A stretch of DNA of 59,180 nucleotides from Chitinophagaceae bacterium (GTDB taxonomy: Bacteria > Bacteroidota > Bacteroidia > Chitinophagales > Chitinophagaceae). Below, one piece after another: positions 28,926 through 45,823 of this stretch (the stretch's first letter is position 1; each line of letters opens with the position of its first letter). The notes beneath the pieces are model-generated. The model saw nothing but the letters and a program-made list of their open reading frames with translations. It was not told the origin of the DNA and ran no database searches. Both the position numbers and the translations under genes were made by a program. The DNA lies in contig JAIXOJ010000145.1 in the NCBI GenBank assembly GCA_027486835.1, positions 1 to 59,180 on the forward strand, read 5' to 3'.

Positions 28926-29197
28926 ATATTAATTTGCGATTTTCAAAAATTATTCCTATCAACACCAATTTAATACTATTGGCGCAAATCGGAAGCGGCG
29001 AAGGTATGGGTTGGATTTTAAAATTTTATTGTAAATTTTTGCTAGAATGGAAATATTTAGTATGTACTACCAAAATGCTAAAACTAAACAACTACTTAGT
29101 GACTGAAAAAAGGCGAAAAAAGACAGTCTTATTTAAACCCTTTTTGTTTTTAATGATTTTACATACAATAACAAAGATTCAATTTCAATCTGATTAT
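28926..29197. other. Leader/promoter region of the isolated rpoC
   Basis: About 270 bp without a gene. It must contain the rpoC promoter, because the upstream transcription unit ends in a hairpin terminator at 29198-29236. I did not find an exact TAnnTTTG box on the minus strand. Confidence 0.45.
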
Positions 29198-29236
29198 AAA
29201 AAGGGTTACAGAGAAAATCTCTGCAACCCATTTTTT
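29198..29236 (-). terminator. Bidirectional hairpin terminator after the M12B protease gene
   Basis: GGGTT-A-CAGAGA-AAA-TCTCTG-C-AACCC forms a stem with one mismatch and has T-rich sequence on both sides (TTTTT on the minus strand, TTTTTTG on the plus). It lies 20 nt after the protease stop. Confidence 0.8.
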
Positions 29237-29256
29237 GTTTGAATTTCAATAAACAA

Positions 29257-32200
29257 TTACTGAATAATCAATTGTTTATTAATTACACTAGTGGAGGTAA
29301 TGATTCTTACACTGTAAGTTCCTGGAGTATATTTACTAACAGGGAAAGTTATAGTGTTGGTGTTGGGTTTTGCCGTAAATATCAATTTCCCATTAACCCC
29401 AAACAGTTGAATTTGATCCATTTTATTAGGGGATTTAATCAATACTACATTTTTCGCAGGGTTAGGGAACAATGATATTTCTGCTGAAGATTCAAATGTG
29501 AAGCTAATTATGTTTGTATATGTAAATGCCCCGTTTACATCAGTTTGTTTGACTCTGTAATAAACTACACCAGTTTTTGAGGAAGCATCTGTGAAGAAAT
29601 AGTCATTAACTGTTTTGCTGCTTTTTGCACCTTCAATCAAACCAATACTTTCAAAATGTACTCCGTCGTTGCTTCTCTCCACGCTATACTTTTTGTTGTT
29701 GATTTCGTTGGCAGTTTGCCATTTTAACTGCACGCTATTGTTCTCAAGCTTAACACCAGTGAATTTAAGCCAATCAACTGGCAAAGGAATAAGGGCTGAC
29801 CTACAGATTTGTACACCCCATGTGGTTACAGAACCTCCATTTCCAACGTACTGATCGAATATGCGTAATCTCCATTGACCAACTGGTGATTCTCCGTTAA
29901 AAATTGATAATGACTCCGCTGGTTTTACCGTTTCAGGAGTAGATGAATTACAAGTAATACCGGAGAGAGTGGCATCATCGTCAAATGAAAGATTAAAAAT
30001 CTGTGCACTATCACAAACATCAGATGCTAGTAAAGCAATTGTACCTTTTGGACTTACCAAGCTTATACGCAAATCGCTAAATGAGCTGTGCTGAATCTTT
30101 AATCCTACAACATTTATATCCGTAATCACACCAGTTGAATCTACTGGTTCTACTAAACTTAAATTGATGGTAGCTGAAGTGGTGGGTGAAATGGTAGATG
30201 GTGCGCCGGTTTTTGTTAACGTATTGCAACGTTTAGCGCCCGTTTTAAACCTAATAGGCGTAGAATATTGACCAACAATACCCCCACAAAGGTTTGAAAC
30301 TGGTCTAATTTTCCAATAATAATCTTCAGATTCAAGCAATGCCATACTTGACGTATGAAATGTATCTGGAACAGAAGCAGTATAAACTGTATTGGTAAAT
30401 AATGAGTCTGTTGCAACGGCTAAATCATAACTATTAGCATTGGAATTGTACCCCCAAGAAAATAATGGATTTACTATTTGGCCAATTGATTTTGCTGCTG
30501 GAGAAACGCCATTTGTAGTAAACGATGTAAGCGCAACAATTTTAAACGATAAAGTTCTAGTTTGTGTACTCGTATCACCAACAGCGGTGATTGTAAAGCT
30601 GTAAGTACCAGGAACTAATGCTCCAGTATTGTCAAGTGTTACTACAGTTGAATCATTTGGAAGAATTCCATTTTTACTAAAACTTGCCGTAGTTGCCCCT
30701 GGCAAACCTGATGCACTAAAGTTAACTGGAGATGAAAAAGAACCTACAGCACCCACATTAATTACAAAAGAAGGGTTGCCTCCAGCACAAACAGATTTTT
30801 GGGCTGGATAATTGAGTGCATAATTTGTAGTTAATGGTGTTCTGATGGTAAAGTTAATGTTTGATATATCAAAAAACACATTGCCCAATGCCCTAATCCT
30901 AATTCTAGCTTTCGAAGTCGTATTGTTAGGTACTAATACCCCTGCTGAACCAGAATTTGGAGTGCTATCTTTTAATACTATTGGATAAGTTAATCCACCA
31001 TCGGTTGATAGTTCTATGGCCACAGCACTACACCTAATTGGTGACAAATCAGTGTTGCTTACGTTCCATGTTACGTTGCGGTATTCTCCCACATTCCATA
31101 CAACAGCAGCATTAGGATAAGTTACCGAAAATGGATTGGTTGTATTAATTACGTTTACGTTCATTACATCATAACAAACACCGCCGCCATTATTTTTATT
31201 ATCTCGAGCTGTTAACCTAAATTCTAAAACTCTTGCATAGCTAGGCAACAACTCCCCAATGGTAGTTTTATTTGCAATGATGTCAGCCAGCTTAGGAAAT
31301 GTTCTGCTTTGAGATGTTACTGGTGAAAAAGAACGAAAAATAGGGGCATTGCCAGTTGGTGCATTCCAGTTGGAGAAAGTTCCACCTGTGTTGGTTTGTT
31401 CCCATGCGTAAGTAAGTGCGTCACCGTCAGGATCGGAGGCAGAACCTGTGAGGGTGAATGCAGTTTTGTAAGGAATGTAAAAATCTTTTCCTGCATTTAC
31501 AACTGGAGGTTGATTACCTGTAGCAGTTATCACCGCACAGCTATTACCGTTACTAAGGTTTGAGTAGTTTATGATTTGATCAAAACTAATAGCATGGAAC
31601 ATGGCATCACTATTTGCCTGTAAGTCGTTTTGTGTATTGCAAATGCCCGCGTAAGCCATAATGGTGGTACCGCTCCCAGGCTCTGCGTTGGTATTGGTAG
31701 AACCATTCCCGCTACAGCTTCCTGTGTTTGCATTAAACGTATGTTCACCACCAAATTGATGTCCCATTTCGTGCGCTACATAATCTACATCATATGCATC
31801 ACCAACTGGGCTAGGACTGCCCGTAATTCCTCTTGCTTTATTTCCTGCTTTACAAACACAACCTAATTGGGCTAAACCACCACCACCTGTGGAAAAGGTA
31901 TGACCAATGTCGAAGTTGGCTTCCCCAATTAAATTGGCAATATTTGTTTGACTCTCATTAATAAGTGTGCTGGCAGTGTTATTTCCAGCAAATGGATCGG
32001 TGTTTGCATTTGTGAAAACAACCAAGTCATTATTAGCAACTAACTGTAAGCGAATTGCAACCTCTTTTTCATAAATTCCAGTAACCCTATTCATACTGGT
32101 CACAATGGCAGATAATGTTTGAGCTTTTGTTGGGCTAGCTACACCTGTTGCAGCAACTGCATATTCCCCAGTACAAGCCACCGCTGCTCTATACGTTCTT

Positions 32201-32826
32201 AACTGATTACCAATACATTTAGCAACAGGGGGTTTTGCCTGGGGAGTAGATGTTCCACTATTTGCGCTGTTGATATCTTGAATGAGACCTTCCTCGAACA
32301 GTTCGTTTTTTTTTAAATCTTTTTTATAGTAGGAGAGGTAAATAGTTTGGTTGTTTTTATAAGCTGGATCAATGAAATAATGACCTCTATTATTATCTAA
32401 CACCATTGCATGGAAACCCAGTTCTGTATAATCAAGTCTTATAGCAACCGTAGGATCTTCTACACCCTGACCACCATAAGTTTTGATGGAAGGAAATTTA
32501 TCTGCCAATGCAGGAGCCATTGTTTGAACTGCTTGAACCCTAAAGGTTGCTAATCCGCCATCTGGAGTAGGTAACGTAATCAACAAAGGCTTTGCTTTTG
32601 CATTTTGTGTAAATTCTTGTGGAGCTGATGCCAAAGCTGATTTCATCTGCAAAGTATCTAATTGCATCAGATGGTAATTTTCAGGCTTAATGCGCAACGA
32701 TGACGCTTCAGGGCGAAGTGCTGATTTTTGTGGAGTAGTCCAACAGTTAACAACCTTCTGTGCTTGTGCAGAAACGGTATTTGCACAAATAAATAGGGTA
32801 ACAAATAGAATCGAAAATAGCCTCAT
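29257..32826 (-). CDS. Reprolysin-like (M12B) metalloprotease with P-domain and T9SS domain
   Basis: The 1189-residue secreted zinc protease has a signal peptide (MRLFSILFVTLFICANTVSAQ), an N-terminal propeptide region (about 22-200), and a metzincin catalytic domain with HEMGHQFGGEH at about 351-361, i.e. HExxHxxGxxH with three His ligands and the catalytic Glu. Ig/Fn3-like modules follow (about 440-860), then a proprotein-convertase P-domain (about 865-1015, with GESPVGQWRLRIFDQYVGNGG), an Fn3-like module and a C-terminal T9SS type A domain (LFPNPAKN to the end). The likely role is extracellular protein degradation. It is monocistronic. Confidence 0.9.
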   Translation of the reverse strand: MRLFSILFVTLFICANTVSAQAQKVVNCWTTPQKSALRPEASSLRIKPENYHLMQLDTLQMKSALASAPQEFTQNAKAKPLLITLPTPDGGLATFRVQAVQTMAPALADKFPSIKTYGGQGVEDPTVAIRLDYTELGFHAMVLDNNRGHYFIDPAYKNNQTIYLSYYKKDLKKNELFEEGLIQDINSANSGTSTPQAKPPVAKCIGNQLRTYRAAVACTGEYAVAATGVASPTKAQTLSAIVTSMNRVTGIYEKEVAIRLQLVANNDLVVFTNANTDPFAGNNTASTLINESQTNIANLIGEANFDIGHTFSTGGGGLAQLGCVCKAGNKARGITGSPSPVGDAYDVDYVAHEMGHQFGGEHTFNANTGSCSGNGSTNTNAEPGSGTTIMAYAGICNTQNDLQANSDAMFHAISFDQIINYSNLSNGNSCAVITATGNQPPVVNAGKDFYIPYKTAFTLTGSASDPDGDALTYAWEQTNTGGTFSNWNAPTGNAPIFRSFSPVTSQSRTFPKLADIIANKTTIGELLPSYARVLEFRLTARDNKNNGGGVCYDVMNVNVINTTNPFSVTYPNAAVVWNVGEYRNVTWNVSNTDLSPIRCSAVAIELSTDGGLTYPIVLKDSTPNSGSAGVLVPNNTTSKARIRIRALGNVFFDISNINFTIRTPLTTNYALNYPAQKSVCAGGNPSFVINVGAVGSFSSPVNFSASGLPGATTASFSKNGILPNDSTVVTLDNTGALVPGTYSFTITAVGDTSTQTRTLSFKIVALTSFTTNGVSPAAKSIGQIVNPLFSWGYNSNANSYDLAVATDSLFTNTVYTASVPDTFHTSSMALLESEDYYWKIRPVSNLCGGIVGQYSTPIRFKTGAKRCNTLTKTGAPSTISPTTSATINLSLVEPVDSTGVITDINVVGLKIQHSSFSDLRISLVSPKGTIALLASDVCDSAQIFNLSFDDDATLSGITCNSSTPETVKPAESLSIFNGESPVGQWRLRIFDQYVGNGGSVTTWGVQICRSALIPLPVDWLKFTGVKLENNSVQLKWQTANEINNKKYSVERSNDGVHFESIGLIEGAKSSKTVNDYFFTDASSKTGVVYYRVKQTDVNGAFTYTNIISFTFESSAEISLFPNPAKNVVLIKSPNKMDQIQLFGVNGKLIFTAKPNTNTITFPVSKYTPGTYSVRIITSTSVINKQLIIQ

Positions 32827-32849
32827 GAGCTGTTGATTTGTTAAGGTTA

Positions 32850-32887
32850 TAAAAAAAGAAAAGCATACCCAAGCTAATAGGTATGCT
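32850..32887 (-). terminator. Terminator after the E1 alpha/beta gene
   Basis: AGCATACC and GGTATGCT form an 8-bp perfect stem around a 10-nt loop; on the minus strand this is followed by TTTTCTTTTTTT. It lies between the E1 stop (32942) and the next gene's start (32826). Confidence 0.8.
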
Positions 32888-32941
32888 CACAAATAAAAGT
32901 ATAAAACAGTGATTAACAATGAAGATTAGGTGAAAATGGCA

Positions 32942-35008
32942 CTAATAGTTTAAAAGCTTATCTAAACGCTTGATCACTTTATCCACAGTTGGCAGCATTG
33001 CCGCTTCCAAAATGAGGTTTGTGGGAACTGCAGGAAGGTTAAGTGCACCTATTACTTCTACCTTGGCATCCAGAAAATGATAACAGCTACTAGATATTCT
33101 ATGTGATAAAGATTCAGCAAAGGAGTTATTTAATTGCTCCTCACTAAGCACGATTACTTTACCATGTTTGGTAACTGTTTCAAACACTAACTCTTCGTCA
33201 AGCGGGAATAATGTTCTTAAATCAACAATTTCCACTTTTCCTGGATATTTTTTAGCGGCTGCCTTTGCCCAATAAATCCCCATTCCATAAGTAATGATAC
33301 ATACGGAATCACCCTTTTTTATATGCTCTGGGTCGGCAGCTAAGCTGATGCTTGCTTTTCCTAATGGGAAAATATAATCGCGACTGGGTTCAATAGTTTT
33401 GGCTTCTTCTGTGCCAAACATTTTACTCCAGTATAAACCCTTATGTTCCAACATTACCACGGGATTGGGGTCGTAAAACGCCGCTTTCATTAATCCTTTC
33501 ATATCAGCAGCATTGGAAGGATAAGCTACCTTAAGTCCTTTAATGGAGAGCAAAGTACTTTCCACACTACCACTATGGTAAGGTCCGCCGCCGCCATATG
33601 CACCTACTGGTACTCTTAACACCATGCCCACTGGAAATTTTCCATTGGTTAAATAACTTGATTTGGATACTTCGCTTACTAACTGGCTAAAACCTGGGTA
33701 GATATAATCTCCATACTGCACTTCAACGATTGGTTTTACCCCAATGGCAGACATACCTACTGTGCTACCTACGATATAGGCTTCTTGAATAGCGGTATTA
33801 AACACACGCTTATCCCCAAATTTTTCAGCCAAATTGGCCGTTTCTCTAAATATACCTCCAAGCCTTCTACCCACATCTTGACCATAAAGGATGGCTTCGC
33901 TATGGTCTTCCATAATTTCTTCGATGGCATGTAAGGCAGCATCTACCATCACTACTTTTTCACCCGTCTTCGGGCTTCTAGTGCCTTTTTCTTCGGTCAC
34001 TTTGGTGGGGGCAAACACGTGGTCTTCCACGCTGTGCGCCTCAGGTTCCGCCGCTTCTACTGCTTTGGCAAATGATTCGGACACGATTCGTTGTGTGTCG
34101 GACTCTACTTCGTTAATATCGTGTTCATTAAACCCTGCACTGTTGAGCAAAACCCTCATTTTGGGTAAAGGGTCGTACAACCCATGACGCAACAAATCTT
34201 CCCGATCACGATAAAACTCACGGCGGATGGTGTTACTATGGTTCCCCAATAACGGCACACGGGCATGAACCAGCACCGGTTTTCTTTCTACTCTGGCATA
34301 AGCGGCTGCTTGTTGCATGGTTTCGAAACTGCGCATAAAATCGCTACCATCACATTGCAAACGGTGCAGCCCTTTAAAGCCTGCGGCATATTCATAAGCC
34401 GTGGAGGTTCTTGTTTCCTCGGCGGTAGCACTGGTTCCCCATTGGTTATCCTGTACTAAATATATTATTGGTAGTTGTTTTAAAACAGCAAATTGTAATG
34501 CTTCACTTACTTCTCCCTCGGTAACACTACCATCGCCCATGGAACACATTACAATGGGGCATTCTCCATTTTCGCCTTTTCTAAGCAAAGCAGAATGGGT
34601 ATCACAAAGAAATTTCAATCCATGAGCCAACCCTGTGGCTGGTATTGCCTGCATACCTGTAGCACTACTTTGGTGAATGATGGAGGCACGAATACCATCT
34701 TTATTGTTGGGATGGCAATAATAGGAGCGACCAGCGGAAAAGGGGTCATCTTTTTTAGCCAATAATTGCAACATCAATTCCAATTCGGTAAAGCCTAGGG
34801 ATAGCAACATGCTGTCATCTCTGTAATACGGGCTTACCCAATCGCAAGACTGTAGTTGAAGACCGGCTGCAATTTGGATGGCTTCATGTCCACGGGAGGT
34901 GGAATGCTCATACTTGCAGGTTTGTCGGTTAGCCTCAAACGTATCGCCCATGGCTTTTGCCGTGACCATTAGCCGGTAGGCTTTTAACAATGTATCTCGG
35001 GTTAGCAT
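32942..35008 (-). CDS. Fused 2-oxoacid (branched-chain/pyruvate-type) dehydrogenase E1 alpha/beta
   Basis: The 688-residue protein fuses an E1 alpha-like TPP-binding part (about 1-330, with GDG at 158-160 starting the GDGSVTEGEVSEALQ motif and a following QDN) to an E1 beta-like part (about 360-688, with ILYGQDVGRRLGGIFRET, the PFYHSG-like GPYHSGSVES and the C-terminal transketolase domain). Such fusions occur in Bacteroidota and are usually assigned to the branched-chain 2-oxoacid dehydrogenase complex, though pyruvate is possible. It decarboxylates 2-oxoacids and passes the acyl group to lipoylated E2, which is not encoded nearby. It starts 53 bp after the FAH-family gene, probably cotranscribed. 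Confidence 0.9.
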   Translation of the reverse strand: MLTRDTLLKAYRLMVTAKAMGDTFEANRQTCKYEHSTSRGHEAIQIAAGLQLQSCDWVSPYYRDDSMLLSLGFTELELMLQLLAKKDDPFSAGRSYYCHPNNKDGIRASIIHQSSATGMQAIPATGLAHGLKFLCDTHSALLRKGENGECPIVMCSMGDGSVTEGEVSEALQFAVLKQLPIIYLVQDNQWGTSATAEETRTSTAYEYAAGFKGLHRLQCDGSDFMRSFETMQQAAAYARVERKPVLVHARVPLLGNHSNTIRREFYRDREDLLRHGLYDPLPKMRVLLNSAGFNEHDINEVESDTQRIVSESFAKAVEAAEPEAHSVEDHVFAPTKVTEEKGTRSPKTGEKVVMVDAALHAIEEIMEDHSEAILYGQDVGRRLGGIFRETANLAEKFGDKRVFNTAIQEAYIVGSTVGMSAIGVKPIVEVQYGDYIYPGFSQLVSEVSKSSYLTNGKFPVGMVLRVPVGAYGGGGPYHSGSVESTLLSIKGLKVAYPSNAADMKGLMKAAFYDPNPVVMLEHKGLYWSKMFGTEEAKTIEPSRDYIFPLGKASISLAADPEHIKKGDSVCIITYGMGIYWAKAAAKKYPGKVEIVDLRTLFPLDEELVFETVTKHGKVIVLSEEQLNNSFAESLSHRISSSCYHFLDAKVEVIGALNLPAVPTNLILEAAMLPTVDKVIKRLDKLLNY

Positions 35009-35061
35009 GAATGAAAAAGATTTAGGTTCAAAAAATGATTTAATTGACTTTTGATAATTGA

Positions 35062-35676
35062 TTATTTTATGTCTAAGACGAACACACTGGTTGCTGCAAT
35101 AAACCCTTCGAGCTTATCGCCGGGCAGGCACTCCCCCACTCCTGCTGGAGTACCTGTGAAAATGACATCACCGATATTGATAGAGAAGTATTGGGAAATA
35201 TTAGCGATTACCTGACTAAATGAAAACAGCATATCCTTGGTGTTGCCTTCTTGAACCACCTTTTCGTTTTGTGTTAAGGAAAAGATGATGGAACTGACCG
35301 TAGTATCAGCATCTGCAAATGGTAGCCATTTACCAATGACTGCGGAGTTGTCCCAAGCTTTGGCTTTTTCCCATGGAAGTCCTTGTGCTTTGAGGTCGCG
35401 CTGGATGTCCCTAGCGGTAAAATCTATTCCTAAAGAGAAAGCGTTATAGTATTTGTGAGCATATTTTTCGTTGATAAAGCGTCCATTTTTTGAAATGCGC
35501 AGCACCACCTCGGCTTCGTAATGAAGCTCGTTAGAAAAATTGGGGTAATAGAATGGTGTTTGGGGCTGCAAGAGCGCACTCTTGGGCTTCATAAATATCA
35601 CAGGCTCGCTGGGCACCTCGTTTCCGAGTTCCTTAGCGTGGTCTGCATAATTCCGGCCTACACAAAAAATCTTCAT
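35062..35676 (-). CDS. Fumarylacetoacetate hydrolase (FAH) family protein
   Basis: The 204-residue short-form FAH fold protein begins MKIFCVGRNYADHAKELG. Metal ligands are visible in HYEAEVVLRI (two Glu) and LGIDFTARD (Asp), with the substrate loop FTGTPAGVG near the C-terminus. Short family members act as oxaloacetate decarboxylases, acylpyruvases or oxaloacetate tautomerases; sequence alone does not choose between them. It lies between pth and the E1 gene, all on the minus strand. Confidence 0.88.
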   Translation of the reverse strand: MKIFCVGRNYADHAKELGNEVPSEPVIFMKPKSALLQPQTPFYYPNFSNELHYEAEVVLRISKNGRFINEKYAHKYYNAFSLGIDFTARDIQRDLKAQGLPWEKAKAWDNSAVIGKWLPFADADTTVSSIIFSLTQNEKVVQEGNTKDMLFSFSQVIANISQYFSINIGDVIFTGTPAGVGECLPGDKLEGFIAATSVFVLDIK

Positions 35677-35798
35677 GATAAGTTATTAAAATAGTAACCA
35701 TATAGCAGCCTATTTTAGAGAAAAGCCCTAACGCAATTCGTCCAAAACCCGCTACATAAATCGTATTCAACTATATAATAACTGTTTGAGTAGGCGAT

Positions 35799-36377
35799 TT
35801 ATTGTGTAAACACCAAATTATTTATGAAATTCATGGTTTTTTCTAGCCCAATGGCGGCAAATTGCTCAATTACCTCAGTTGACTTGCTTATTTTTTGCCT
35901 AACGATTGGTTTTTCCTCGGGCAGCCATTTTCCTAGCACAAAGGGTACTTGCATGCCTTTGGGAAAATTGTTGCCAATGCCAAATCGTAGTTTGGGATAC
36001 TTATCATTACCTAATACTGCTTGAATGTCTTTTAGCCCATTATGGCCTGCATCGGTGCCTGAACCCCTAAGGCGGAGTTTATTGAGCGGCAATGCCAAAT
36101 CATCCACAATGGTGAGGGTGTTTTCAATGTCTATTTTTTCCTTGTCTAGCCAATATTTAAAGGCACGACCGCTGAGGTTCATGTAGGTAGTGGGCTTGAT
36201 GCAAATAAAGGTTTTGCCCTTCCATTTTACCTCGGCCTTATAGGCCAAACGATCTAATTGGAAGAAGGCGCTGTTTTTTGCCACAAACGCATCCAACACA
36301 TCAAAACCGATGTTGTGACGTGTTTGATCGTACTCTGCACCAATATTTCCCAACCCAACCACTAAAAACTTGCTCAT
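35799..36377 (-). CDS. pth: Peptidyl-tRNA hydrolase
   Basis: The 192-residue enzyme releases peptides from prematurely dissociated peptidyl-tRNA. Catalytic and binding residues match the E. coli pattern: N11 and H21 (GLGNIGAEYDQTRHNIGF), N67 (PTTYMNLSG), D92/D93 and N113 (GTDAGHNGLKDI). I place the start at 36375-36377 (MSKFLVVGLGN); the frame is open further upstream to 36629 but that part has no family similarity. It lies 122 bp upstream of the FAH gene. Confidence 0.95.
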   Translation of the reverse strand: MSKFLVVGLGNIGAEYDQTRHNIGFDVLDAFVAKNSAFFQLDRLAYKAEVKWKGKTFICIKPTTYMNLSGRAFKYWLDKEKIDIENTLTIVDDLALPLNKLRLRGSGTDAGHNGLKDIQAVLGNDKYPKLRFGIGNNFPKGMQVPFVLGKWLPEEKPIVRQKISKSTEVIEQFAAIGLEKTMNFINNLVFTQ

Positions 36378-36690
36378 GCGCCAAATGTATAGTAAATGTG
36401 TATTTGGGGTAAGGGGTAATCCCTTGATAGCCGCAACGATGTTTAGCAATAAAGAACTACCTAATTTTTTGTACCCCCAACCCAACAGTGGATGAATATG
36501 AATAGCTGCGGGTGAACCCTGTGGAGTTTTATAGGAGGGGTTAGGCTTTAAGCACAAGGGATGGTGACGACATAAGTTCTGCACAGCCTCCTCTGTATCC
36601 AATTCTTTTTCACACCTATTACCTAACACTTTCTACTTTCTACTCAATTAGGGTACGTTATCCATTCGATAGCCTGCGTTAATTTTTTAT
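36378..36690. other. Upstream region of pth
   Basis: The in-frame extension of pth to 36629 is not counted as coding. There is no other gene here; the operator-like array begins at 36691. Confidence 0.45.
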
Positions 36691-36812
36691 TTGCAGCTAT
36701 AAATGTGCAGCTATATTTATTGCTGCAAAAAGATTGCTGCACTTTTTATAAGCACAAAAATTGCAGCAATAAATTTGCAGCTATTATTTTTGCTGCAAAT
36801 TAATTGCTGCAA
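36691..36812 (+). promoter_or_regulatory. Operator-like array: eight TTGCAGC half-sites in two 70-bp-spaced palindromic blocks
   Basis: Seven-base half-sites (TTGCAGC, once GTGCAGC; reverse GCTGCAA, once GCTGCAC) start at 36691(+), 36705(+), 36722(-), 36736(-), 36761(+), 36775(+), 36792(-) and 36806(-). The spacing is 14, 17, 14, 25, 14, 17, 14, so the block F-F-R-R occurs twice with a 70-bp period; the two blocks are highly similar over their length. The extended half-site reads TTGCAGCWAT. The last site ends 12 bp before the ATG of the HTH gene at 36825, which suggests autoregulation by that protein. No similar array occurs elsewhere in the window. Confidence 0.75.
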
Positions 36813-36824
36813 ATATTTTTTTGA

Positions 36825-37388
36825 ATGATTAGATCGAGAAAGAATGAAACCAGCGTTGCAGATTTAAGGCAACAATATGGATTAACACAACAAGAATTGG
36901 CACTGTTGCTCGGTGTGGCGAGGTCGCAAATGGGGCTGATGGAACAAGGAAAACGTAGATGGCCCACCGGCACCACGGTAAAGCAAATAGCCCTTGAGCC
37001 GCAGTTGCTGCCAACCATATCGGTTCATCTGCAAAGCAGCATAGATGCGGTTCAACAACAAACCCAGTCTGCTTGGGAGCAACAGCAAATATTGGCCGCC
37101 CACAAAGAAGCAAGCGCATTAGCTGCACTCAAGCAAAAGCTTGCCGATTATAAAATCAAAGAGCAGCAAGCCATCAATGCACTGCGCCTTGCCGAGAAAA
37201 TGAAAACTGGATGGCAGGAACAAGATCAAGGGCAAGCGGCCAAAGACAAAATAATTTGGGATAATGTAGAAACCAGTGCATGGGTAAAACTGCGAGATTT
37301 TGGGAGAGGGCCTCAAGCCGCCCTTCAAGAAAAAATTGAAGTCATGGAAGCTTTTGTACATAAATGGATTGGAGGGGGCAGTCTGTGA
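36825..37388 (+). CDS. XRE-like helix-turn-helix protein with coiled-coil region
   Basis: The 187-residue cytoplasmic protein has an N-terminal HTH of the XRE type (about 10-60: VADLRQQYGLTQQELALLLG then VARSQMGLMEQGKRRWP), followed by a long helical, Gln/Ala/Lys-rich region (about 65-135) that may form a coiled coil, and a C-terminal segment ending in GGGSL. There is no enzymatic motif. The start ATG lies 12 bp after an array of eight inverted and direct half-sites, the layout expected of an autoregulated DNA-binding protein. It could be a transcription factor, or the DNA-binding part of an unrecognised mobile or toxin-antitoxin module; no partner gene is adjacent on the same strand. Confidence 0.75.
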   Translation: MIRSRKNETSVADLRQQYGLTQQELALLLGVARSQMGLMEQGKRRWPTGTTVKQIALEPQLLPTISVHLQSSIDAVQQQTQSAWEQQQILAAHKEASALAALKQKLADYKIKEQQAINALRLAEKMKTGWQEQDQGQAAKDKIIWDNVETSAWVKLRDFGRGPQAALQEKIEVMEAFVHKWIGGGSL

Positions 37389-37707
37389 AGGATGCTCAAT
37401 AATTATGGATAAGGTAAAAGCTCATCTGGGCGTAGTTTCCCAACTACGTCCGAGCGTCTGCCAAACTCACGTTTGGCGTTTTAATTACCAAGGTCTTAAA
37501 TAGCTTGGCAATCAATCCAATAGGGCATATCTCATAAACAGATAAATTGGATTTCCAAATCCCATTTCCAGACATTTTGGTTCGACTATTAAATTTGGCT
37601 TATGAATAAATCAACAGCAATATTGCAATAATTGGGCTTTGGTTATTGGCTTACGGAATGCTAATTTCCCAACAACGCCAAGCCTATTTCGTTAGTGGCA
37701 ATTTTAT
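37389..37707. other. Intergenic region containing a double-hairpin repeat
   Basis: About 320 bp without a gene. Besides the paired hairpins at 37431-37477, it ends with CGTTAGTGGCAATTTTATATG immediately before the next gene, weakly reminiscent of gene-cassette or element boundaries, which I could not substantiate. Confidence 0.45.
37431..37477. repeat. REP-like double hairpin
   Basis: CGTAGTT-TCCC-AACTACG (37431-37448) and GCCAAAC-TCAC-GTTTGGC (37460-37477) are two perfect 7-bp stems with 4-nt loops, 11 nt apart. Such tandem short hairpins resemble REP/RAYT-type or other dispersed extragenic palindromes. It is single copy in this window. Confidence 0.65.
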
Positions 37708-38238
37708 ATGAAAGATTTTAGTGGCAAGTACAATTATTGGGTATTGATTTTAATGCTCCTTGGTTTGATTATTTTTCTGATTATTTTTTTGTTTTCTGTT
37801 GCAAACGCAATAACTATTAATGAGTTAACTGCAGAAATGGGAGTTAGAGTGATAAGAGGGTTCGGCTATATTTCTATTGTATTTTCATCGGCCTTTTTTG
37901 TCATTTCAATTTTCCAAGGCTTAAAACGAAGAAGGTTCAATTTGTTTATTAAAAACGAAGAGCTGATTTTAAAAAATATTTTCACGGGACAGGAGGATTT
38001 TTTTAAATTCGAAAAGGTAAAAGGGTATAGTACCTCAGACATTCTAACACAGAGCAAAACATACCATGTTGTAATCATATACACTGAAAATGGTAGCACA
38101 TATGAGTTTCCAAAGTTCATGTTGAGAAATTTTAAGGAACTTAAGAAAGCTTTTAAAATAGCTGGATTTGAATATTTAGGTCATGAGCCATATACTTTAG
38201 GCTGGTATGGGAAAAGAAGAAAGGCTAAGTTTCTTTAA
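37708..38238 (+). CDS. Membrane protein with PH/YcxB-like domain
   Basis: The 176-residue protein has two N-terminal membrane segments (about 11-33 and 53-70) followed by a soluble beta-rich domain (LFIKNEELILKNIFTG, then FEKVKGYSTSDI, YHVVIIYTENGSTYEFPKF) and a C-terminal helix, a layout seen in bacterial PH-like and YcxB-like proteins. The function of these is generally unknown. It stands alone, preceded by a repeat-bearing intergenic region. Confidence 0.65.
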   Translation: MKDFSGKYNYWVLILMLLGLIIFLIIFLFSVANAITINELTAEMGVRVIRGFGYISIVFSSAFFVISIFQGLKRRRFNLFIKNEELILKNIFTGQEDFFKFEKVKGYSTSDILTQSKTYHVVIIYTENGSTYEFPKFMLRNFKELKKAFKIAGFEYLGHEPYTLGWYGKRRKAKFL

Positions 38239-38342
38239 AACTGCTTAAAATAAAAATATTTAAAATTGCAGAACGCTAATAGGCCAAATGTTCCCCAGAA
38301 CTTGTCCCGAGCTATAGCAAGCTTGAAGCACGTACAATTCGC

Positions 38343-38714
38343 TTAATTCTTCTCAGCTTGTTCGATTATTTTACCCCCCTGCGTACAATACACTACCACC
38401 CCCACCCTATCAATATGTTCTATCAGGGCTGGTGTGTTGATGGTGTGATAGTTAAGCAAATCGAATTGATAGGGCATATTGGTTGTTTCATTTAGTACAT
38501 AACTAATTTGGCTGATGATAGCAAAACTCAAACGTTCGCCTTTGAGTGCCAAATCCACGTCGCTACCTTGTTTATAATTACCCTTGGCCCTGCTGCCAAA
38601 AATAATCGCCTGCTCCACTTGGGGATGCTGGCTTAAAATGTTTTGGATCGCCAAAAGATCTGTATCCAAAAGCCCGAATTTATTGGTCATTCGCTTTCTC
38701 ATTAAATACAACAT
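38343..38714 (-). CDS. MNT-type nucleotidyltransferase-fold protein (orphan)
   Basis: The 123-residue protein carries the minimal nucleotidyltransferase motif: G40-S41-R-A-K-G, then G50-S51-D52-V-D54, the active-site GSx9-10DxD. Small proteins of this family are the antitoxin (adenylyltransferase) halves of HEPN/MNT toxin-antitoxin pairs. No HEPN gene is adjacent on either side, so this copy is an orphan or acts elsewhere. The start may be the third Met (38690, MTNKFGLL), giving 115 residues closer to the family norm. Confidence 0.8.
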   Translation of the reverse strand: MLYLMRKRMTNKFGLLDTDLLAIQNILSQHPQVEQAIIFGSRAKGNYKQGSDVDLALKGERLSFAIISQISYVLNETTNMPYQFDLLNYHTINTPALIEHIDRVGVVVYCTQGGKIIEQAEKN

Positions 38715-38874
38715 ACAATGCTTGGAACAATGATACGTATTTGTATTGTATTAATTGTTCCATTTCGTTAAATGCAGTAAACATTCAACCCCCAAACAAG
38801 TCATGGCTGCCCCTTATTTGCTAGCCTTGTTAGCAGACTACCCAAAAATATATTTGCATCACTAAAAAAAATAA

Positions 38875-41800
38875 ATGAATCCAAGTATTATAAAAGGCAA
38901 ATCAATACCCGAACTATCCAATGGCGAAACCTTGGGCGAGCTGCTTACCCAAAGTTTCACCAATCATGCCAATAACATTGCCCTCAAGTTTAACGGCGAA
39001 GCCATTACTTATCAAGCACTAGATGGCTGGAGTAATGGCATTGCGCAACAATTAATTACGCTGAACATCCAACCTGGCAGCACCGTAGGGGTTTATTTCC
39101 AGCGGGGTGCTGCGTTACATGCTACTATCTGTGGCATAGTAAAAGCTGGATGCACTTATGTGCCTGTGGATGTAGAAATGCCGATTGAACGCGCCCATAC
39201 CGTTTTTGTGGAAGCGGAGGTACGAGCCTATTTTGCTGCGTCGGAAGTGTTGGCAGATGTTCCTCGTTTACTGCCTACCCAAGCATCCATTCCTTTTTTA
39301 CCGCCCATTAAAGTAAGTAATGAAGCAGATGCCTATTACCTCTACACATCGGGAAGCACGGGAAAACCCAAGGGCATTCCTATATCGCATCGGCAAATTT
39401 GTCACTTGATAAGAGCGGAACAAACCGTGCTACAGATACAGCCTACCGACTTGGTGTATCAGGGCTTTTCTGTTTCGTTTGATATGTGGTGCGAAGAAAC
39501 CTGGATTTCGTTGTTTGCGGGGGCTTGCTTGGTAGTTGCTGACCAGACCACCGCTAAATCGGTGGATGAATTGCACCTGTTTCTGGTACAAAACGGCGTA
39601 ACGGTATTACATGCCGTACCCAGTCTTTTAGCAGTGTTAGACATTCTGGCCGCCCGATATTTACGCATCGTAAATGCTGGAGGGGAAGCATGCCCCATTA
39701 GTGTGATGGAAAAATGGGCAAATGCCGTTACTTATTTTTTCAATAGCTACGGCCCCACTGAAACCACGGTTACCTCTTCCATAGCCTTGTTGAAGGCGGG
39801 TGATGCCATAGACATTGGCACCCCATTGCCCAATTATAATTATGCTGTAATAACCGAAAACAATCGTATAGCCGAAAGGGGTGTGGAAGGTGAATTAATA
39901 ATTAGTGGGTATGGAGTGGGTAATCGGTATTTGAAACTACCAGAACTAAGTGCGCAAAAATTTCTCGCAAATCCTTTAGTTGCCGAGGGACTGCCCGGAA
40001 CAACCATTTACAAAACTGGGGATTGGGTGGTGATGTCTACCGAAGGCAAAATATCGTTTCATGGCCGAATAGATGACCAGGTAAAAATTAGGGGCTTTAG
40101 AATAGAATTGGGGGAAATTGAACAATCCCTAATGGCTCTTGCGGCAATCAAGACCGCCGTGGTGTTAGCAAAAAAGAACAGCCTAGAGGAGGACGAATTG
40201 GTTGCCTACTATACAACAGAGCCCAATATTTCGCTTTCAACTGCCACTATGCGGGAGCATTTGCTGGCCAACTTACCAAGCTATATGGTACCCAATGTAT
40301 TCGTTCTAATTGACCAATGGCCTACCCTGCCTAGCGGAAAAATTAATAGAAAAGCATTGGTTACCCCCATTGAATTAACCCAAAGAAATAAAGCAGAAAG
40401 CCCCAATTATGCCGGCATGAATACCAGTCAGAAAATAAAGGCGGCTCTCCAATACTTTTTCCCTGACAAATCCATTACGGACGATAAAGATTTCTTTTAC
40501 GACCTAGGCGGGCATTCGCTGCTAGCGGCTCTGCTGGTTTCGGAATTGCGGAACAATGCTGGATTAACCCAACTCTCCATCAGGGATATCTACGAAAACC
40601 GAAAAGTGGGGCAATTGATTGCTTGTGCAGCAAATAAGGCCGTGGTAATAACCGAAAAAAAGGCGTTTAAACCCGCTAACAAAAAACTGGTGTTTTGGTG
40701 TACCCTCGCCCAAGCCCTGAGCTTGCCCATCATCTTTGGCTTTTTTTCCGCACAGTTGTATGTGCCTTATCTTGGTTATTATTATGCACAGGTAGAATGG
40801 GAAAATCATTTGTATTCGTTCGGTGTAGCCATTGCCTTTTACTGCTTCATTACCCCAATGATGCTATTGGCCACTTTGATGACAAAAAAGTTGGTCATTG
40901 GCACCTACAAAGCAGGCATTTATCCTATTTGGGGAAGTTATTATTTCCGATGCTGGTTAGTGGGCATGATTAAACGGTTGAACAACTTCAATTATTTAAA
41001 CAGCACGCCCCTTTATCCCATTTACTTAAAAGCAATGGGGATGGTTATTGGAGGAAACAACCAATTGAATGTGCTTGATTTTGAAGCGGCAGACCTAATA
41101 GAAATTGGGGCGGGTACCAATATTGGCAGTGGTGTTGTGCTAAACAACATTGTGTATGAACATGGGGAAATGCGGATTGGGAAAATTACCATTGGCCAGC
41201 ATTGTTACATTGGCACCAGTTGTGTAGTGGGGATTGATTCCATAATGGAAGATTTTGCGGAATTAAAAGACTTGAGTTATTTGTCTACCAACACAGTGCT
41301 AAAAAAAGGTACGATTGCTTTTGGCAGTCCCGCCGTTGCTCAACGCCAAAAGGCTGCATCTGAAATGCAAATTCCTGCTTACCCATCCAAAAACAAAGTG
41401 TTATGCTATGCTTTTGTTTATGCGGGATTATTGCTTTTGCTTCCATTTGCGGTGATGATTCCATTTTTTCCTGGGCTGTTTACCCTTTATGAATTGGATC
41501 AATTAGCGGGCGATTATGAGTTTTACTATCTATTTCTTACCCCTGTGTTAGCGTTGCTCTATGTACTGATTTTTATTTTCCAAACCTCTTGGGTCACAAG
41601 GGGGCTTATGCGAAACGTAAAAGCGGGCACCTATGATGTATATAGTTCGGTCTTTCTAAAAAAATGGGTCTGCGATCAATTGTATAGTATTTCTCTCGTG
41701 GTACTGCATCCGCTGTATGCCAGTGTTTTTGTAAGCCAATACTTCCGATTATTGGGTGCCAAGGTGGGCGTAAGGGCAGAAATTAGTACTGCGGGAAACA

Positions 41801-42792
41801 TTACCCCCCATTTGTTAACCCTTTCTGCTGAGTCATTTATTGCCGATTCGGTGAATCTTGGAGAAGCAGATATACGAGCAAGTAGTTTGATTTTAGCCCA
41901 AACTAGTATTGGGGAACGCACCTTTATTGGCAATAGCGCATTAGTGCCTCAAGGCAGCGATTTACCCAGCAATATGTTAGTTGGTGTGCTTTCAGTACCG
42001 CCAGATGCAGCGCAACTTGCCGCTGAACCGGGTAACGATTGGTTTGGTTCGCCTCCATTGGCCATACCTAAAAGGCAGTGTGCAACGCCCTTTGATGAAT
42101 CATTAACCTACAAGCCTAAGCAATCACAAATTATTTTCAGGGGAATGGTAGAGTCTGTGCGTATTCTATTGCCATTGTCTTTTCTATTAAGTGCCACTTG
42201 GTTGTTTATTTCTTACATACACAATGTGGTGGTGGAAGATGAGTGGTGGGTTTTTGTACTGGTATTGCCTTTTTATTTTGCTGGTTTTATTGCCATTCCA
42301 GGATTTCTATTTGTAGTACTGCTTAAGTGGGTATTGGTAGGAAAATATACCGCCAAAGAAATGCCTATGTGGAGTTTGCAGGTTTGGTTGAGCGAGGCAG
42401 TTACCTGTATGTACGAGTCTATAGCCGTGCCTTACTTATTAGAATATTTACAAGGCACCATTTTCCTACCCTTCCTTTTACGATTCTTAGGTGTAAAAAC
42501 AGGCAAGAGGAATGTGTTTTTCACGACAGATTTTACGGAGTTTGATGTCATCATAATTGGTAATGAAGTGGTGCTAAATCACCAATGCGGCCCACAAACG
42601 CATTTATTTGAGGACAGAATTATGAAAATAGGCAACATTACTATCGGTTCAAGAAGTAGCGTAGGTGCGAGATCCATAATTCTGTACCACAGTACTTTGG
42701 GCGAAGCGGTACAAATAGCCCCATTGTCGTTGGTGATGAAAGGTGAAAATCTCCCTAGTAACTCGGCATACAAAGGCTGCCCGCTACAATAA
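38875..42792 (+). CDS. Pls/PosA-type membrane nonribosomal peptide synthetase
   Basis: The 1305-residue protein has the architecture of poly-epsilon-lysine synthetase-like enzymes. An adenylation domain (about 10-500) shows YTSGSTGKPKG (near 155), NSYGPTETTV (near 290), YKTGDW, DQVKIRGFRIELGE (near 401) and LPSGKINRKAL (near 486). A carrier domain follows with the phosphopantetheine Ser in LGGHSL (S548). The C-terminal half (about 600-1305) has six hydrophobic segments in three pairs, each pair followed by a soluble left-handed beta-helix-like domain (about 725-820, 950-1050, 1215-1300). No condensation or thioesterase domain is present. Family members activate one amino acid and form isopeptide chains at the membrane. 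The adjacent phosphopantetheinyl transferase and TonB receptor suggest a dedicated biosynthesis/uptake unit. The product is unknown. Confidence 0.88.
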   Translation: MNPSIIKGKSIPELSNGETLGELLTQSFTNHANNIALKFNGEAITYQALDGWSNGIAQQLITLNIQPGSTVGVYFQRGAALHATICGIVKAGCTYVPVDVEMPIERAHTVFVEAEVRAYFAASEVLADVPRLLPTQASIPFLPPIKVSNEADAYYLYTSGSTGKPKGIPISHRQICHLIRAEQTVLQIQPTDLVYQGFSVSFDMWCEETWISLFAGACLVVADQTTAKSVDELHLFLVQNGVTVLHAVPSLLAVLDILAARYLRIVNAGGEACPISVMEKWANAVTYFFNSYGPTETTVTSSIALLKAGDAIDIGTPLPNYNYAVITENNRIAERGVEGELIISGYGVGNRYLKLPELSAQKFLANPLVAEGLPGTTIYKTGDWVVMSTEGKISFHGRIDDQVKIRGFRIELGEIEQSLMALAAIKTAVVLAKKNSLEEDELVAYYTTEPNISLSTATMREHLLANLPSYMVPNVFVLIDQWPTLPSGKINRKALVTPIELTQRNKAESPNYAGMNTSQKIKAALQYFFPDKSITDDKDFFYDLGGHSLLAALLVSELRNNAGLTQLSIRDIYENRKVGQLIACAANKAVVITEKKAFKPANKKLVFWCTLAQALSLPIIFGFFSAQLYVPYLGYYYAQVEWENHLYSFGVAIAFYCFITPMMLLATLMTKKLVIGTYKAGIYPIWGSYYFRCWLVGMIKRLNNFNYLNSTPLYPIYLKAMGMVIGGNNQLNVLDFEAADLIEIGAGTNIGSGVVLNNIVYEHGEMRIGKITIGQHCYIGTSCVVGIDSIMEDFAELKDLSYLSTNTVLKKGTIAFGSPAVAQRQKAASEMQIPAYPSKNKVLCYAFVYAGLLLLLPFAVMIPFFPGLFTLYELDQLAGDYEFYYLFLTPVLALLYVLIFIFQTSWVTRGLMRNVKAGTYDVYSSVFLKKWVCDQLYSISLVVLHPLYASVFVSQYFRLLGAKVGVRAEISTAGNITPHLLTLSAESFIADSVNLGEADIRASSLILAQTSIGERTFIGNSALVPQGSDLPSNMLVGVLSVPPDAAQLAAEPGNDWFGSPPLAIPKRQCATPFDESLTYKPKQSQIIFRGMVESVRILLPLSFLLSATWLFISYIHNVVVEDEWWVFVLVLPFYFAGFIAIPGFLFVVLLKWVLVGKYTAKEMPMWSLQVWLSEAVTCMYESIAVPYLLEYLQGTIFLPFLLRFLGVKTGKRNVFFTTDFTEFDVIIIGNEVVLNHQCGPQTHLFEDRIMKIGNITIGSRSSVGARSIILYHSTLGEAVQIAPLSLVMKGENLPSNSAYKGCPLQ

Positions 42793-42952
42793 AGTAGGTG
42801 CTAGAATGATGCCTCTGATTGTTGCACCCCTTCAAAGGTTGACACTATACATTTTAAACAAAACATTTTTATGCCTCCTTATACAATACTAATTTGGTTT
42901 AAATTGATCCTGAACGATAGTCTTTTAATTGTGTGCAAACAAAACTTATGAA

Positions 42953-43564
42953 ATGATTTACGTAGCAACAATACCTAACAGCGGCATTGTTAACCTCCAC
43001 CCCGCCATGGTGAAAGCATTGCCCACCAACCAAAAGGAATACCTAGCAACCTTCAACCCGAGTGTTGCCATAAAAAAATGGGCTGGTAGGCAATTGCTGT
43101 ATCATGCTATGCAAGAACTAGGGCAAACAGCGCTTTTCTCCACGCTTCATCACACCCCAAATGGTAAATTGATGTGTGATGGGTATGTTTATTGTTCACT
43201 TTCTTATGCTGCTAATTTTATCTGCTGCGGTGTTACCCTAAATACTCCCTGTGGAATTGATATGGTGCAACAAAGTCCGCTGGATGCATTGGGTAATATT
43301 TATTATCTAAATGAATCGGATAATCAATCCATTGCAATCGATCGAAATAGATTTTACTTTTTTCATAGTCGCTACGAAGCTTTGATAAAATTGGGAGTCA
43401 TCGAACCTTGGCAGGAAATAGATTTTTCATTGACGCCCAATACGCTATTGCCCATCCAACAAACCATCCATCTCGGCACAAAACAAGTGGACAAGGATTT
43501 ACTCATTAGCCTAGCCAGCACATTTGAAACAGAAATTGGCGATATCATTACTTATACGCTGTAA
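42953..43564 (+). CDS. Diverged 4'-phosphopantetheinyl transferase-like protein
   Basis: From the ATG at 42953 the protein is 203 residues and follows the Sfp/EntD pattern loosely: WAGRQLLYHAM (about 43-53), TPNGKL, a SLSY segment in place of the usual SISH, GIDMV (D103 in place of GIDIE) and FFHSRYEALIKLG (E142, K146 in place of WxxKEAxxK). It would transfer the phosphopantetheine arm onto the carrier Ser of the upstream synthetase. The second acidic residue of GIDIE and the SISH His appear replaced, so activity is uncertain. An in-frame TTG at 42929 would add 8 residues; the ATG is preferred. It lies 160 bp after the synthetase stop. Confidence 0.65.
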   Translation: MIYVATIPNSGIVNLHPAMVKALPTNQKEYLATFNPSVAIKKWAGRQLLYHAMQELGQTALFSTLHHTPNGKLMCDGYVYCSLSYAANFICCGVTLNTPCGIDMVQQSPLDALGNIYYLNESDNQSIAIDRNRFYFFHSRYEALIKLGVIEPWQEIDFSLTPNTLLPIQQTIHLGTKQVDKDLLISLASTFETEIGDIITYTL

Positions 43565-43747
43565 GGAGGAGCATGAATGTTCAAGGCAGTATCTATTCTA
43601 ATTCCAAACCATGCATAACCTAATTGCATGGTAAACAAACCAGTGAAAACACCCATCGCTTCCTTTCACCATTCTGTTTAAATCCAATTAAAAATGCGAA
43701 ACAAATCGCGCCGTAGTCTTACCATTCCTTCACTTATTATTGCGTTT

Positions 43748-45823
43748 ATGAAAACATCATTCCGCTTCCTAATTGGGTGTGCTTTGTTACCGTTCATGGC
43801 ATTTGCACAACAAATGGATACCAGTTATGTGGTGGTCAAAGACAGCATGCAAGAAGTGGTGGTGCATTCCTTTCACAACCAACAACCTTGGGTGGAAGTG
43901 GCGGGTGCTGTGGCCGTATTGAATAGTGAGCGTTTACAACAAATTGGCACCACGAGTTTATTGCCGGCTTTGAACACAGTGGCAGGTGTAAGAATGGAGG
44001 AAAGAAGCCCTGGCAGCATTCGGTTGGCCATGAGGGGCAGTTTGTTACGGTCGCCATTTGGCGTTAGAAACCTAAAAGTATATTGGAACAGCCTTCCCTT
44101 AACCGATGGTGGTGGCAATACCTACCTCAATTTAGTGGACGCCATGCAAATAAGTTCAGTTGAAATTGTAAAAGGACCCGCCGCTAGCATGTATGGGGCA
44201 GGTACGGGTGGTTTGTTGTTATTAACCACCCAACATCCCTATTCGGTTACCACAACTGCTACAAATACCTATCAAGCCTCCTTAAACTGGGGCAGTTTTG
44301 GGGGCATGCAAGCTGCGTTTTCTTGGAATCACCAAGCAAAAAACAACTCGCACCAACTAATGGCTAGTCACCAACAAAGCGATGGCTATCGTCAACAATC
44401 GGCTTTGAGTAAAGACCACCTTACATGGACTGGCAGCTTTCAAAAACCAAGGCAACAATGGAATTTCTTGGTGTTGGCCACTCGTTTACAATACCAAACA
44501 CCTGGTGGCATCACCCTAGCACAAATGGAACAAAACCCCAAACAAGCCCGCCAAGCTGCTGGAGGGTTTCCGAGTGCTACCACACAACAAACGGGGGTTA
44601 TTAACCAAACTATTTTGGGGGGAATACACCAACGTTTCAACATCAATAAAAATAGTTCTACCGTAGTGGCTCTAGTGTTCAGCCATACCGATTTCAGGAA
44701 TCCATTTATCACTAACTACGAACTGCGGGATGAAACCAATGCGGGGATTAATGCACAATATATCTATCAAAACAAGTGGCGCAAACTGGGCATAAAGTGG
44801 GTGAGTGGTGGGGAATGGTTAGGCAATCGGGCAAAAATTGAAAATGATGGAAACAGACAAGGACGGAGGGATACTGTTCAGTTTATAGACCGGGTAAACA
44901 GCATGCAATGGTTTCTCTTCTCCCAAGTTCAATTAAAATATGGAAGATGGCAAGCGCAATTGGGCGTGAGTGCAAACAACCAAGCCTACCAATACAAAAG
45001 ATTAACCGACGGCAGCACTGGTTTTACCAATAAGCAAACCCAATTGGTAGCCATGCCTAGGTTTTCGATGGGTTATGCCTTTCACAAAACCATTCAATGG
45101 TATGGCGTAGTTTCTAAAGGATTTAGCCCACCTTCATTGGCAGAAATAAAACCCGCAAGCCAACTCTTTAATACTGATTTACAACCAGAATTTGGTTTGA
45201 ATTGGGAAATGGGACTCAAAGGGGAATTACTACAGCCGCGGCTACATTTTGGCCTAAATGTATATAGATGTACCCTTCAGCAAGCAATTGTAGGAAGGAA
45301 CAACCCCGATGGCAGCCAATATTTTGTGAATGCAGGATCTACGCGCCAGAATGGGTTGGAATTAACCTTACAATACCAGTTAATACACAACCCCATTTCT
45401 ATTTTCCAATCCATTACCCTCTTAGAAAGCTATACCTACCAACCCTATCGATTCAACGAATACCAACAAGCCAACAATATTTATTCGGGCAATAAAGTGA
45501 CTGGCATTCCAGAACAAAGCAATGCAAGTGGGCTGCAAGTGGCTTTTAAAAAAGGATTTTTTGTACACGTTTCTTATCAATACACTGGAAAAATACCCTT
45601 AACGGATGCAAATGATGTTTATGCCAAAGACTATCATCTCTTACAAACAAAAATCGGCTGGGTAGGAAAATTTCGCTCCCATAGTTTACAGCTTTTCTTA
45701 GGGGGTGATAATCTATTGAATGAAACCTACAGCCTAGGAAATGATATCAACGCCGCAGGAAAAAGATATTATAACCCTGCACCTACCATTAATGGATATG
45801 GTAGGGTAGTGTGCAATTGGTAG
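43748..45823 (+). CDS. TonB-dependent receptor
   Basis: The 691-residue outer-membrane protein has a signal peptide (MKTSFRFLIGCALLPFMAFAQ), a plug domain (QEVVVHSF as a possible TonB-box-like start, then GVRMEERSPGSIRLAMRGSLLRSP and VEIVKGPAASMYGAGTGG, about 30-165) and a 22-strand-type barrel ending in an aromatic residue (VCNW). There is no carboxypeptidase-like N-terminal domain. An ATG at 43694 would prepend 18 residues (MRNKSRRSL...); I prefer 43748. It lies downstream of the PPTase gene on the same strand and may import the product of the synthetase locus or a metal complex (inference). Confidence 0.85.
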   Translation: MKTSFRFLIGCALLPFMAFAQQMDTSYVVVKDSMQEVVVHSFHNQQPWVEVAGAVAVLNSERLQQIGTTSLLPALNTVAGVRMEERSPGSIRLAMRGSLLRSPFGVRNLKVYWNSLPLTDGGGNTYLNLVDAMQISSVEIVKGPAASMYGAGTGGLLLLTTQHPYSVTTTATNTYQASLNWGSFGGMQAAFSWNHQAKNNSHQLMASHQQSDGYRQQSALSKDHLTWTGSFQKPRQQWNFLVLATRLQYQTPGGITLAQMEQNPKQARQAAGGFPSATTQQTGVINQTILGGIHQRFNINKNSSTVVALVFSHTDFRNPFITNYELRDETNAGINAQYIYQNKWRKLGIKWVSGGEWLGNRAKIENDGNRQGRRDTVQFIDRVNSMQWFLFSQVQLKYGRWQAQLGVSANNQAYQYKRLTDGSTGFTNKQTQLVAMPRFSMGYAFHKTIQWYGVVSKGFSPPSLAEIKPASQLFNTDLQPEFGLNWEMGLKGELLQPRLHFGLNVYRCTLQQAIVGRNNPDGSQYFVNAGSTRQNGLELTLQYQLIHNPISIFQSITLLESYTYQPYRFNEYQQANNIYSGNKVTGIPEQSNASGLQVAFKKGFFVHVSYQYTGKIPLTDANDVYAKDYHLLQTKIGWVGKFRSHSLQLFLGGDNLLNETYSLGNDINAAGKRYYNPAPTINGYGRVVCNW

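Follow-up and report, generated by a model that had tools for sequence, protein, structure and literature searches.

The window is the stretch of 59,180 nucleotides of Chitinophagaceae DNA analysed here at its full length. It contains a gene for a 187-residue protein of the XRE type, preceded at close range by a regular array of short half-sites (Table 1). The array has eight half-sites in the order F-F-R-R F-F-R-R, with spacings of 14-17-14-25-14-17-14, and 12 bp separate its final half-site from the ATG. Positions, order, spacing and distance to the start codon all bear out an earlier sequence-only reading of this locus. That reading had described every half-site as TTGCAGC, which is true of six; those at 36705 and 36736 read GTGCAGC. 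The strict 70-bp period that it claimed is kept as an offset between half-sites, and the repeat itself shows 84% identity across 51 nt.

Table 1. Coordinates of the array, the XRE gene and neighboring features of the window.
Feature	Position	Strand	Remarks
Duplicated unit (array plus XRE gene)	36684..37392	+	77% identity over 710 alignment columns to C40 (blastn)
Array block 1	36691..36742	+	Half-sites at 36691 (F), 36705 (F, GTGCAGC), 36722 (R), 36736 (R, GTGCAGC)
Array block 2	36761..36812	+	Half-sites at 36761 (F), 36775 (F), 36792 (R), 36806 (R), all TTGCAGC
Candidate -7 element TAAATTTG	36770..36777	+	Overlaps a half-site; possible Bacteroidota promoter element
Candidate -7 element TATTTTTG	36785..36792	+	At -40 from the ATG; possible promoter element
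XRE gene	36825..37388	+	187-aa protein; HTH_3 domain, recognition helix 33-40 (model), then a long helical tail
Predicted membrane protein	37708..38238		176 aa; immediately follows the XRE gene; below cut-off for every Pfam family
Small nucleotidyltransferase (Polbeta)	38343..38714	-	About 950 bp from the XRE gene, on the opposite strand
1305-aa protein	38875..42792		By eye, resembles a fusion of an amino-acid adenylation enzyme with a membrane and hexapeptide-repeat part

The GCTGCA/TGCAGC core occurs eight times within 220 bp upstream of the gene, a count reached in none of 200 dinucleotide shuffles. Scored as an F-F-R-R quartet, the window array gives z = 8.8, and none of 100 shuffles reaches that score. 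A looser statistic, in which 7-mers are counted with one mismatch and spacing is ignored, is weak for this locus, being matched by 12 of 300 shuffles. Candidate promoter elements inside the array were recognized by comparison with TANNTTTG, which we take to be the Bacteroidota -7 consensus. Four members, the window gene and its paralogs C40, C210 and C141, have such a candidate at -33 to -40; eight other members examined from the same genome have none. Here and below, C57 denotes the window's contig in its genome, G000, and C40 and C63 are other contigs of G000.

The encoded protein matches Pfam HTH_3 over residues 12-56 (33.9 bits against a cut-off of 23), and is classed on this basis as an HTH_3/XRE domain protein. 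A structure model based on 27 sequences (mean pLDDT 90.9), which superseded a poor single-sequence prediction, makes residues 33-40 the third helix of the HTH and predicts tail helices at residues 67-130 (64 residues), 135-159 and 161-182. Pfam, NCBIfam, PHROGs and PADLOC cover only the HTH part of the family protein. A PDB fold search with the model likewise gave a good match for the HTH part only, with nothing at E<=0.001. PADLOC matches, sought as a sign of anti-phage defence, are confined to residues 6-58 of the window protein. PHROGs returned generic regulators, mostly across the HTH, rather than a phage repressor or element, and three viral contigs resemble the protein at residues 13-56 only. 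For eight family proteins searched against antitoxin families, couple_hipB scored 30.4 bits against 71.65, and the others were likewise below their cut-offs. Comparison of the window gene with its C40 paralog, a single pair, gives dN 0.15 and dS 1.03, values that suggest purifying selection on the gene. For the neighboring nucleotidyltransferase, no obvious HEPN partner was seen by eye in the list of open reading frames.

A multi-copy family with arrays upstream

The window protein belongs to a multi-copy family of Bacteroidota that is apparently undescribed. Profile searches found full-length relatives both in the window's own taxonomic family and in further families of its class. Through records with identical proteins, some can be named as Niabella and a Chitinophagaceae bacterium, both of the window's family, and others as Flavobacterium, of another. 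The search tallies, 49/394 and 48/395, include many partial matches to the HTH only. Eleven family matches occur in the window's genome, and at least 23 in the richest genome. Relatives of the window's own subfamily were absent from the named genome collection. From the match lists we picked 171 members, a few of them truncated, 168 of which have usable upstream DNA.

The sequence-only reading had proposed a motif search upstream of homologs, and had held that homologs lacking the array would speak against it. Equivalent arrays, in one of two layouts, precede 127 of the 168 members; 41 have neither layout, and C132 in the window's genome has no array. The F-F-R-R layout, at z>=4, is found in 94/168 upstream regions, against 0/168 downstream regions and 0/29 regions upstream of other HTH genes, these controls being the HTH-only matches of the profile searches. 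By a weaker criterion, a score unreached by shuffles, the counts are 97 family upstreams, two downstreams and one upstream of another HTH gene. The second layout, in which F-R dyads of 28-32 bp recur every 38-44 bp, accounts for 33 of the 74 remaining upstream regions, against 2/165 in the downstream control. Half-site words differ among members: TTGCAGC for C57 and C40, TTGTAGCA for C210, TTGTGACA for C141, TTGTGGCA for the member on contig C7, TTGTTGCA for C39, and others elsewhere. On an earlier, smaller set, a test based on spacing passed 53/78 family and 2/29 control upstreams. Counting of 7-mers with one mismatch, which passed 20/78 family and 1/29 control upstreams, was dropped; minus-strand control loci had been misoriented, and the method is underpowered, since shuffling sequence rich in arrays regenerates the same words.

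A coiled-coil protein encoded beside some members

An orphan coiled-coil protein of about 137 residues is encoded beside 51 of the 171 members (E<=0.01) and, with the single exception of G477, lies downstream and on the same strand; an example lies at L051 2452-2862. Of the 123 members for which the available downstream DNA reaches 600 bp or more, 42 have it. None is encoded in the window, and seven are found in the window's genome. Among 147 genomes of the window's taxonomic family the partner occurs in three, G000, G044 and G133, all with long XRE matches, that of G133 missing the first 19 positions. When 23 genomes were selected for carrying the XRE family, 22 proved to have the partner. 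A search that began instead from the partner, in named genomes, gave 49 loci, of which 41 carry a family XRE gene; in 33 of these 41 the XRE gene is co-directional with the partner and precedes it by 72-237 bp. The second layout precedes 33/41 of these members and follows 1/41, with six of the 41 overlapping the first set. At L325, L327, L329, L336 and L351, no XRE gene is visible by eye next to the partner.

The partner resembles little in the collections searched. Four partner proteins fell below Pfam cut-offs, the best model being the CAF1 ribonuclease at 17.1 bits against 24.2, and the same number gave weak matches only in PHROGs (best E 0.0037). PADLOC had no match for two of them, and solved structures compared with the partner profile gave weak hits, the best being ClpB at E 0.011. 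No relatives were found in viral contigs or in the phage collection. Homology of the partner to the tail of the XRE protein was considered and rejected (hhalign probability 2.5%). A promoter of the partner's own was unsupported, TANNTTTG occurring in 5/45 against 6.3 expected. This consensus is not clearly enriched upstream of the XRE genes, at 16/94 array-bearing members against 9.0 expected and 3/41 partner-set members against 4.4.

Recognition-helix residues covary with half-site bases

The 94 F-F-R-R arrays, aligned to the consensus T-T-G-T-[A/G]-[A/G/T]-C-A, served as a training set, with a register seeded by TTGTNNCA that favors a C at base 7. In the numbering of the window protein, residue 33 covaries with base 7, residue 38 with base 5 and residue 37 with base 6. 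For 37 representatives of the 94 with less than 35% identity, none of 2000 permutations matched any of these three pairs; with 41 representatives at less than 40% identity the pair 37-6 was weaker (17/2000). In all, 176 residue-base pairs were examined, and 44-2, 32-4 and in part 41-5 also score. The rules derived are R33 with C7, M38 with G5 and A37 with A6.

The partner-gene loci provided a held-out set. Six matches to the first set (90-100%) and members at least 60% alike were removed, leaving 29, of which 25 have an array. With a register set by geometry only (n=25), the rules gave 20/21 versus 1/4 for R33-C7 (p=0.007), 19/21 versus 0/4 for M38-G5 (p=0.001) and 10/11 versus 0/14 for A37-A6 (p=3e-6), in loci that are mostly from Flavobacterium and therefore reflect shared descent, although they are less than 60% identical. 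With the register shifted by a single base, in either direction, none of the three rules survives in the predicted direction. A cruder register applied to the same set gave p=0.053, p=0.010 and p=0.005, respectively. A further rule, G34 with T5, was unconfirmed in the second set (2/7 versus 3/59, p=0.08). Together, the arrays of homologs and the recognition-helix residues that predict their bases constitute strong sequence evidence that each family protein would bind its own array, in line with the earlier suggestion that the adjacent protein binds this one.

Copies in the same genome and arrays without a gene

A pattern search of G000 found the layout of the window array, with identical spacings, twice more. 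Behind the C40 array comes the gene for a paralog (75% identity to the window protein over 186 codons), and this array, too, stops 12 bp before the ATG. When 35601-38800 of the window was compared by blastn with 4 kb around C40, similarity ran from the array to the stop codon and no further (Table 1). An analogous pair in another genome, G333 C42 and C169, is 93% identical across 687 bp, with unrelated flanks. No transposase was seen by eye among the window's open reading frames.

The C63 array has no family gene within 4 kb, as judged by tblastn with eight family proteins, and sits between divergent genes that by eye resemble DNA polymerase III delta' and a polysaccharide deacetylase. Marked half-site positions are identical at 53/53 in both comparisons, C57 with C40 and C57 with C63; spacer positions agree at 52/87 and 39/87, respectively, and for C63, which was located through its half-sites, the comparison is biased toward half-site conservation. 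Half-sites kept in an unlinked array although the spacers have drifted fit a target in trans, and selection in trans is the simplest reading of C63. The sequence-only reading had named an array unlinked to the gene as grounds for doubt. Such arrays do occur, at C63 and several other places, yet the C63 half-sites stay conserved.

Arrays without an intact family gene in the surrounding 3-3.5 kb are C36, C79, C43, C33, C23 and C189a; those on C116 and C154 are too close to contig ends for gene presence to be judged. Half-sites are better preserved than spacers in C23, C33 and C43, and not in C189a or C79. Short gene remnants lie behind the arrays of C23 and C189a, so some arrays outlive their gene.

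Several of these arrays have features of their own. Arrays of TTGTGTCA with 12-20 half-sites and no intact XRE gene are found in the window's genome at L418 1280-1571 (C33), L421 1253-1490 (C23) and L422 937-1120 (C189a). At L057 1658-1873, on C36 of G000, an array of about 210 bp consists of GTTGCAA words and is flanked by genes that by eye are cellulase-like and ruvA-like. Short palindromes GGTTGCAACATTTTTGTTGCAACC, the second with one change, occur on C105 of G000 (L058 1641-1664 and 1917-1940) inside two similar longer stretches, and perhaps belong to a separate dispersed repeat.

Comparison with known systems

The HTH_3 fold is common to the window protein and to lambda CI/Cro-type repressors and SinR (fold matches 2cro and 3zkc), regulators that have cooperative operators. 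Their full length is unmatched, the query TM score being about 0.25 at most among the best 50 matches, and no phage context was seen. Type II antitoxins such as HipB and PezA show weak similarity in the HTH only, with scores well below curated cut-offs, and no toxin was recognized beside the window gene.

Controller proteins of restriction-modification (R-M) systems, C.AhdI, C.BclI and C.Csp231I, are among the closest solved HTH chains and the top fold matches, again for the HTH part only. Such controllers regulate themselves through tandem operators in their promoters; what is seen in the window is a putative operator array upstream, matched to the protein by covariation. The promoter bound by C.Csp231I is reported to have a pair of dimer sites and an extended spacer whose length is critical, and a looped tetramer has been proposed (PMC4321490). 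R-M controller chains have 74-77 residues, whereas the window protein adds a helical tail of about 120 residues. Eight half-sites, and many paralogs per genome with differing words, also set the present system apart. Assignment to the R-M controllers fails because the restriction-modification genes are missing: no restriction or methylase gene was found beside the window gene, by eye in the list of open reading frames for 28000-46000 and by Pfam on three neighboring frames.

RptR of E. coli is a small repressor with three repeated sites in its own promoter and a site conserved across homologs; it is reported to be HTH-like but to lack close structural homologs, and to use a single 6-bp palindrome of which the homologs carry four variants (PMC12255303). 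Here, unlike in RptR, the word changes with the protein. In Caulobacter, expanded XRE paralogs are reported to control a common gene set and to interact physically (PMC10688885); unlike those, most paralogs here differ from one another in their half-sites. Covariation between DNA-binding domains and their sites has already been used as a method, in the MerR family (PMC5045206).

Alternative explanations

The array might serve mainly as the terminal or recognition segment of a dispersing, mobile cassette whose gene-less arrays are remnants or non-autonomous copies and for which regulation is secondary. The unit bounded by array and stop codon would suit a cassette, as would the G333 pair with its unrelated flanks, the gene remnants described above and a truncated gene behind the C45 array. 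Beside the neighbor pth, no family gene was seen by eye in ten other genomes of the genus (393 bp being available in one); the far side of pth differs among genomes, so there is no clean empty site. The edges of five unit pairs, however, show no target-site duplication by eye, the solo array C63 keeps its half-sites and not its spacers, and the plasmid collection has no match to the XRE protein or the partner. We regard the cassette as a possibility to be entertained tentatively. It is unlikely that the system is toxin-antitoxin-like, with the XRE protein an autoregulating antitoxin and the coiled-coil partner a toxin or co-regulator. The proximity of the two genes at most partner loci and the partner's presence in nearly all genomes chosen for the XRE family agree with such a module, but the partner is missing from the window and from beside most members, the partner proteins searched have no Pfam match above cut-off (four) and no PADLOC match (two), and it also occurs where no XRE gene is visible alongside.

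Two further explanations concern the repeats themselves. Regular direct repeats adjoining the gene of a DNA-binding protein recall an iteron-like replication or partition site, an option that the sequence-only reading had raised. The neighbors are of chromosomal type (pth and an rpoC-like frame), inspection by eye of the list of open reading frames showed neither a replication gene nor ParA, and the family is found repeatedly in the window's genome and not in the plasmid collection, all of which makes an iteron most improbable. Hairpin formation by the blocks in the leader RNA of the gene would account for inverted repeats immediately ahead of the ATG. This can hardly be right, given half-site bases that track the recognition helix of the protein and half-sites that are invariant among C57, C40 and C63 instead of compensatorily changed; the window also has no Rfam match at gathering scores.

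Proposed model and its meaning

The best explanation overall, and in our judgement very probably the correct one, is that the array serves as the cognate, autoregulatory operator of the protein encoded behind it. A dimer held together by the long helix would bridge two half-sites of opposite orientation, F and R, lying about 30 bp apart. The 64-residue helix, at 1.5 A per residue, would span about 96 A and a dyad of about 30 bp about 100 A, this ruler being arithmetic on a monomer model. F-F-R-R would then be two F-R dyads interleaved by 14 bp, with two such blocks in the window, and the second family layout would be the same dyad recurring every 38-44 bp. Cooperative filling of the array, which the sequence-only reading had also suggested, would cover a promoter inside it and so switch off the protein's own gene. 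Autorepression by such occlusion is the likeliest mode, with repression rather than activation assumed. Cross-regulation is to be expected between C57 and C40, since their proteins are identical at residues 20-40 and share a half-site, and both would act on the gene-less array C63.

Self-binding HTH regulators are a known kind. What appears undescribed in the literature searched, which did not extend to bioRxiv or most subscription journals, is the family together with its orphan partner and with operator words that are private and readable; within the same bounds the earlier statement that no described system has this layout holds. The fuller picture would be an undescribed multi-copy system of Bacteroidota, made of an array, an XRE protein whose tail is ruler-like and an optional partner, duplicating as a cassette, each copy drifting to a private word, and with gene-less arrays as targets in trans; for this picture as a whole we judge the case to be evenly balanced.

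If this picture is true, the family would provide a naturally occurring recognition code for HTH_3 proteins, legible from sequence, along with ready-made pairs of regulator and operator that are orthogonal. The targets of most regulators need experiments to find; here the target is written beside the gene in most members, so that genome sequences yield many protein-operator pairs. The residue-base rules already succeed in predicting sites of the held-out set, which puts the old question of a recognition code for HTH proteins within reach of direct tests. Paralogs may escape crosstalk through joint change of a few residues and their operators, and the family points to an unstudied gene pair.
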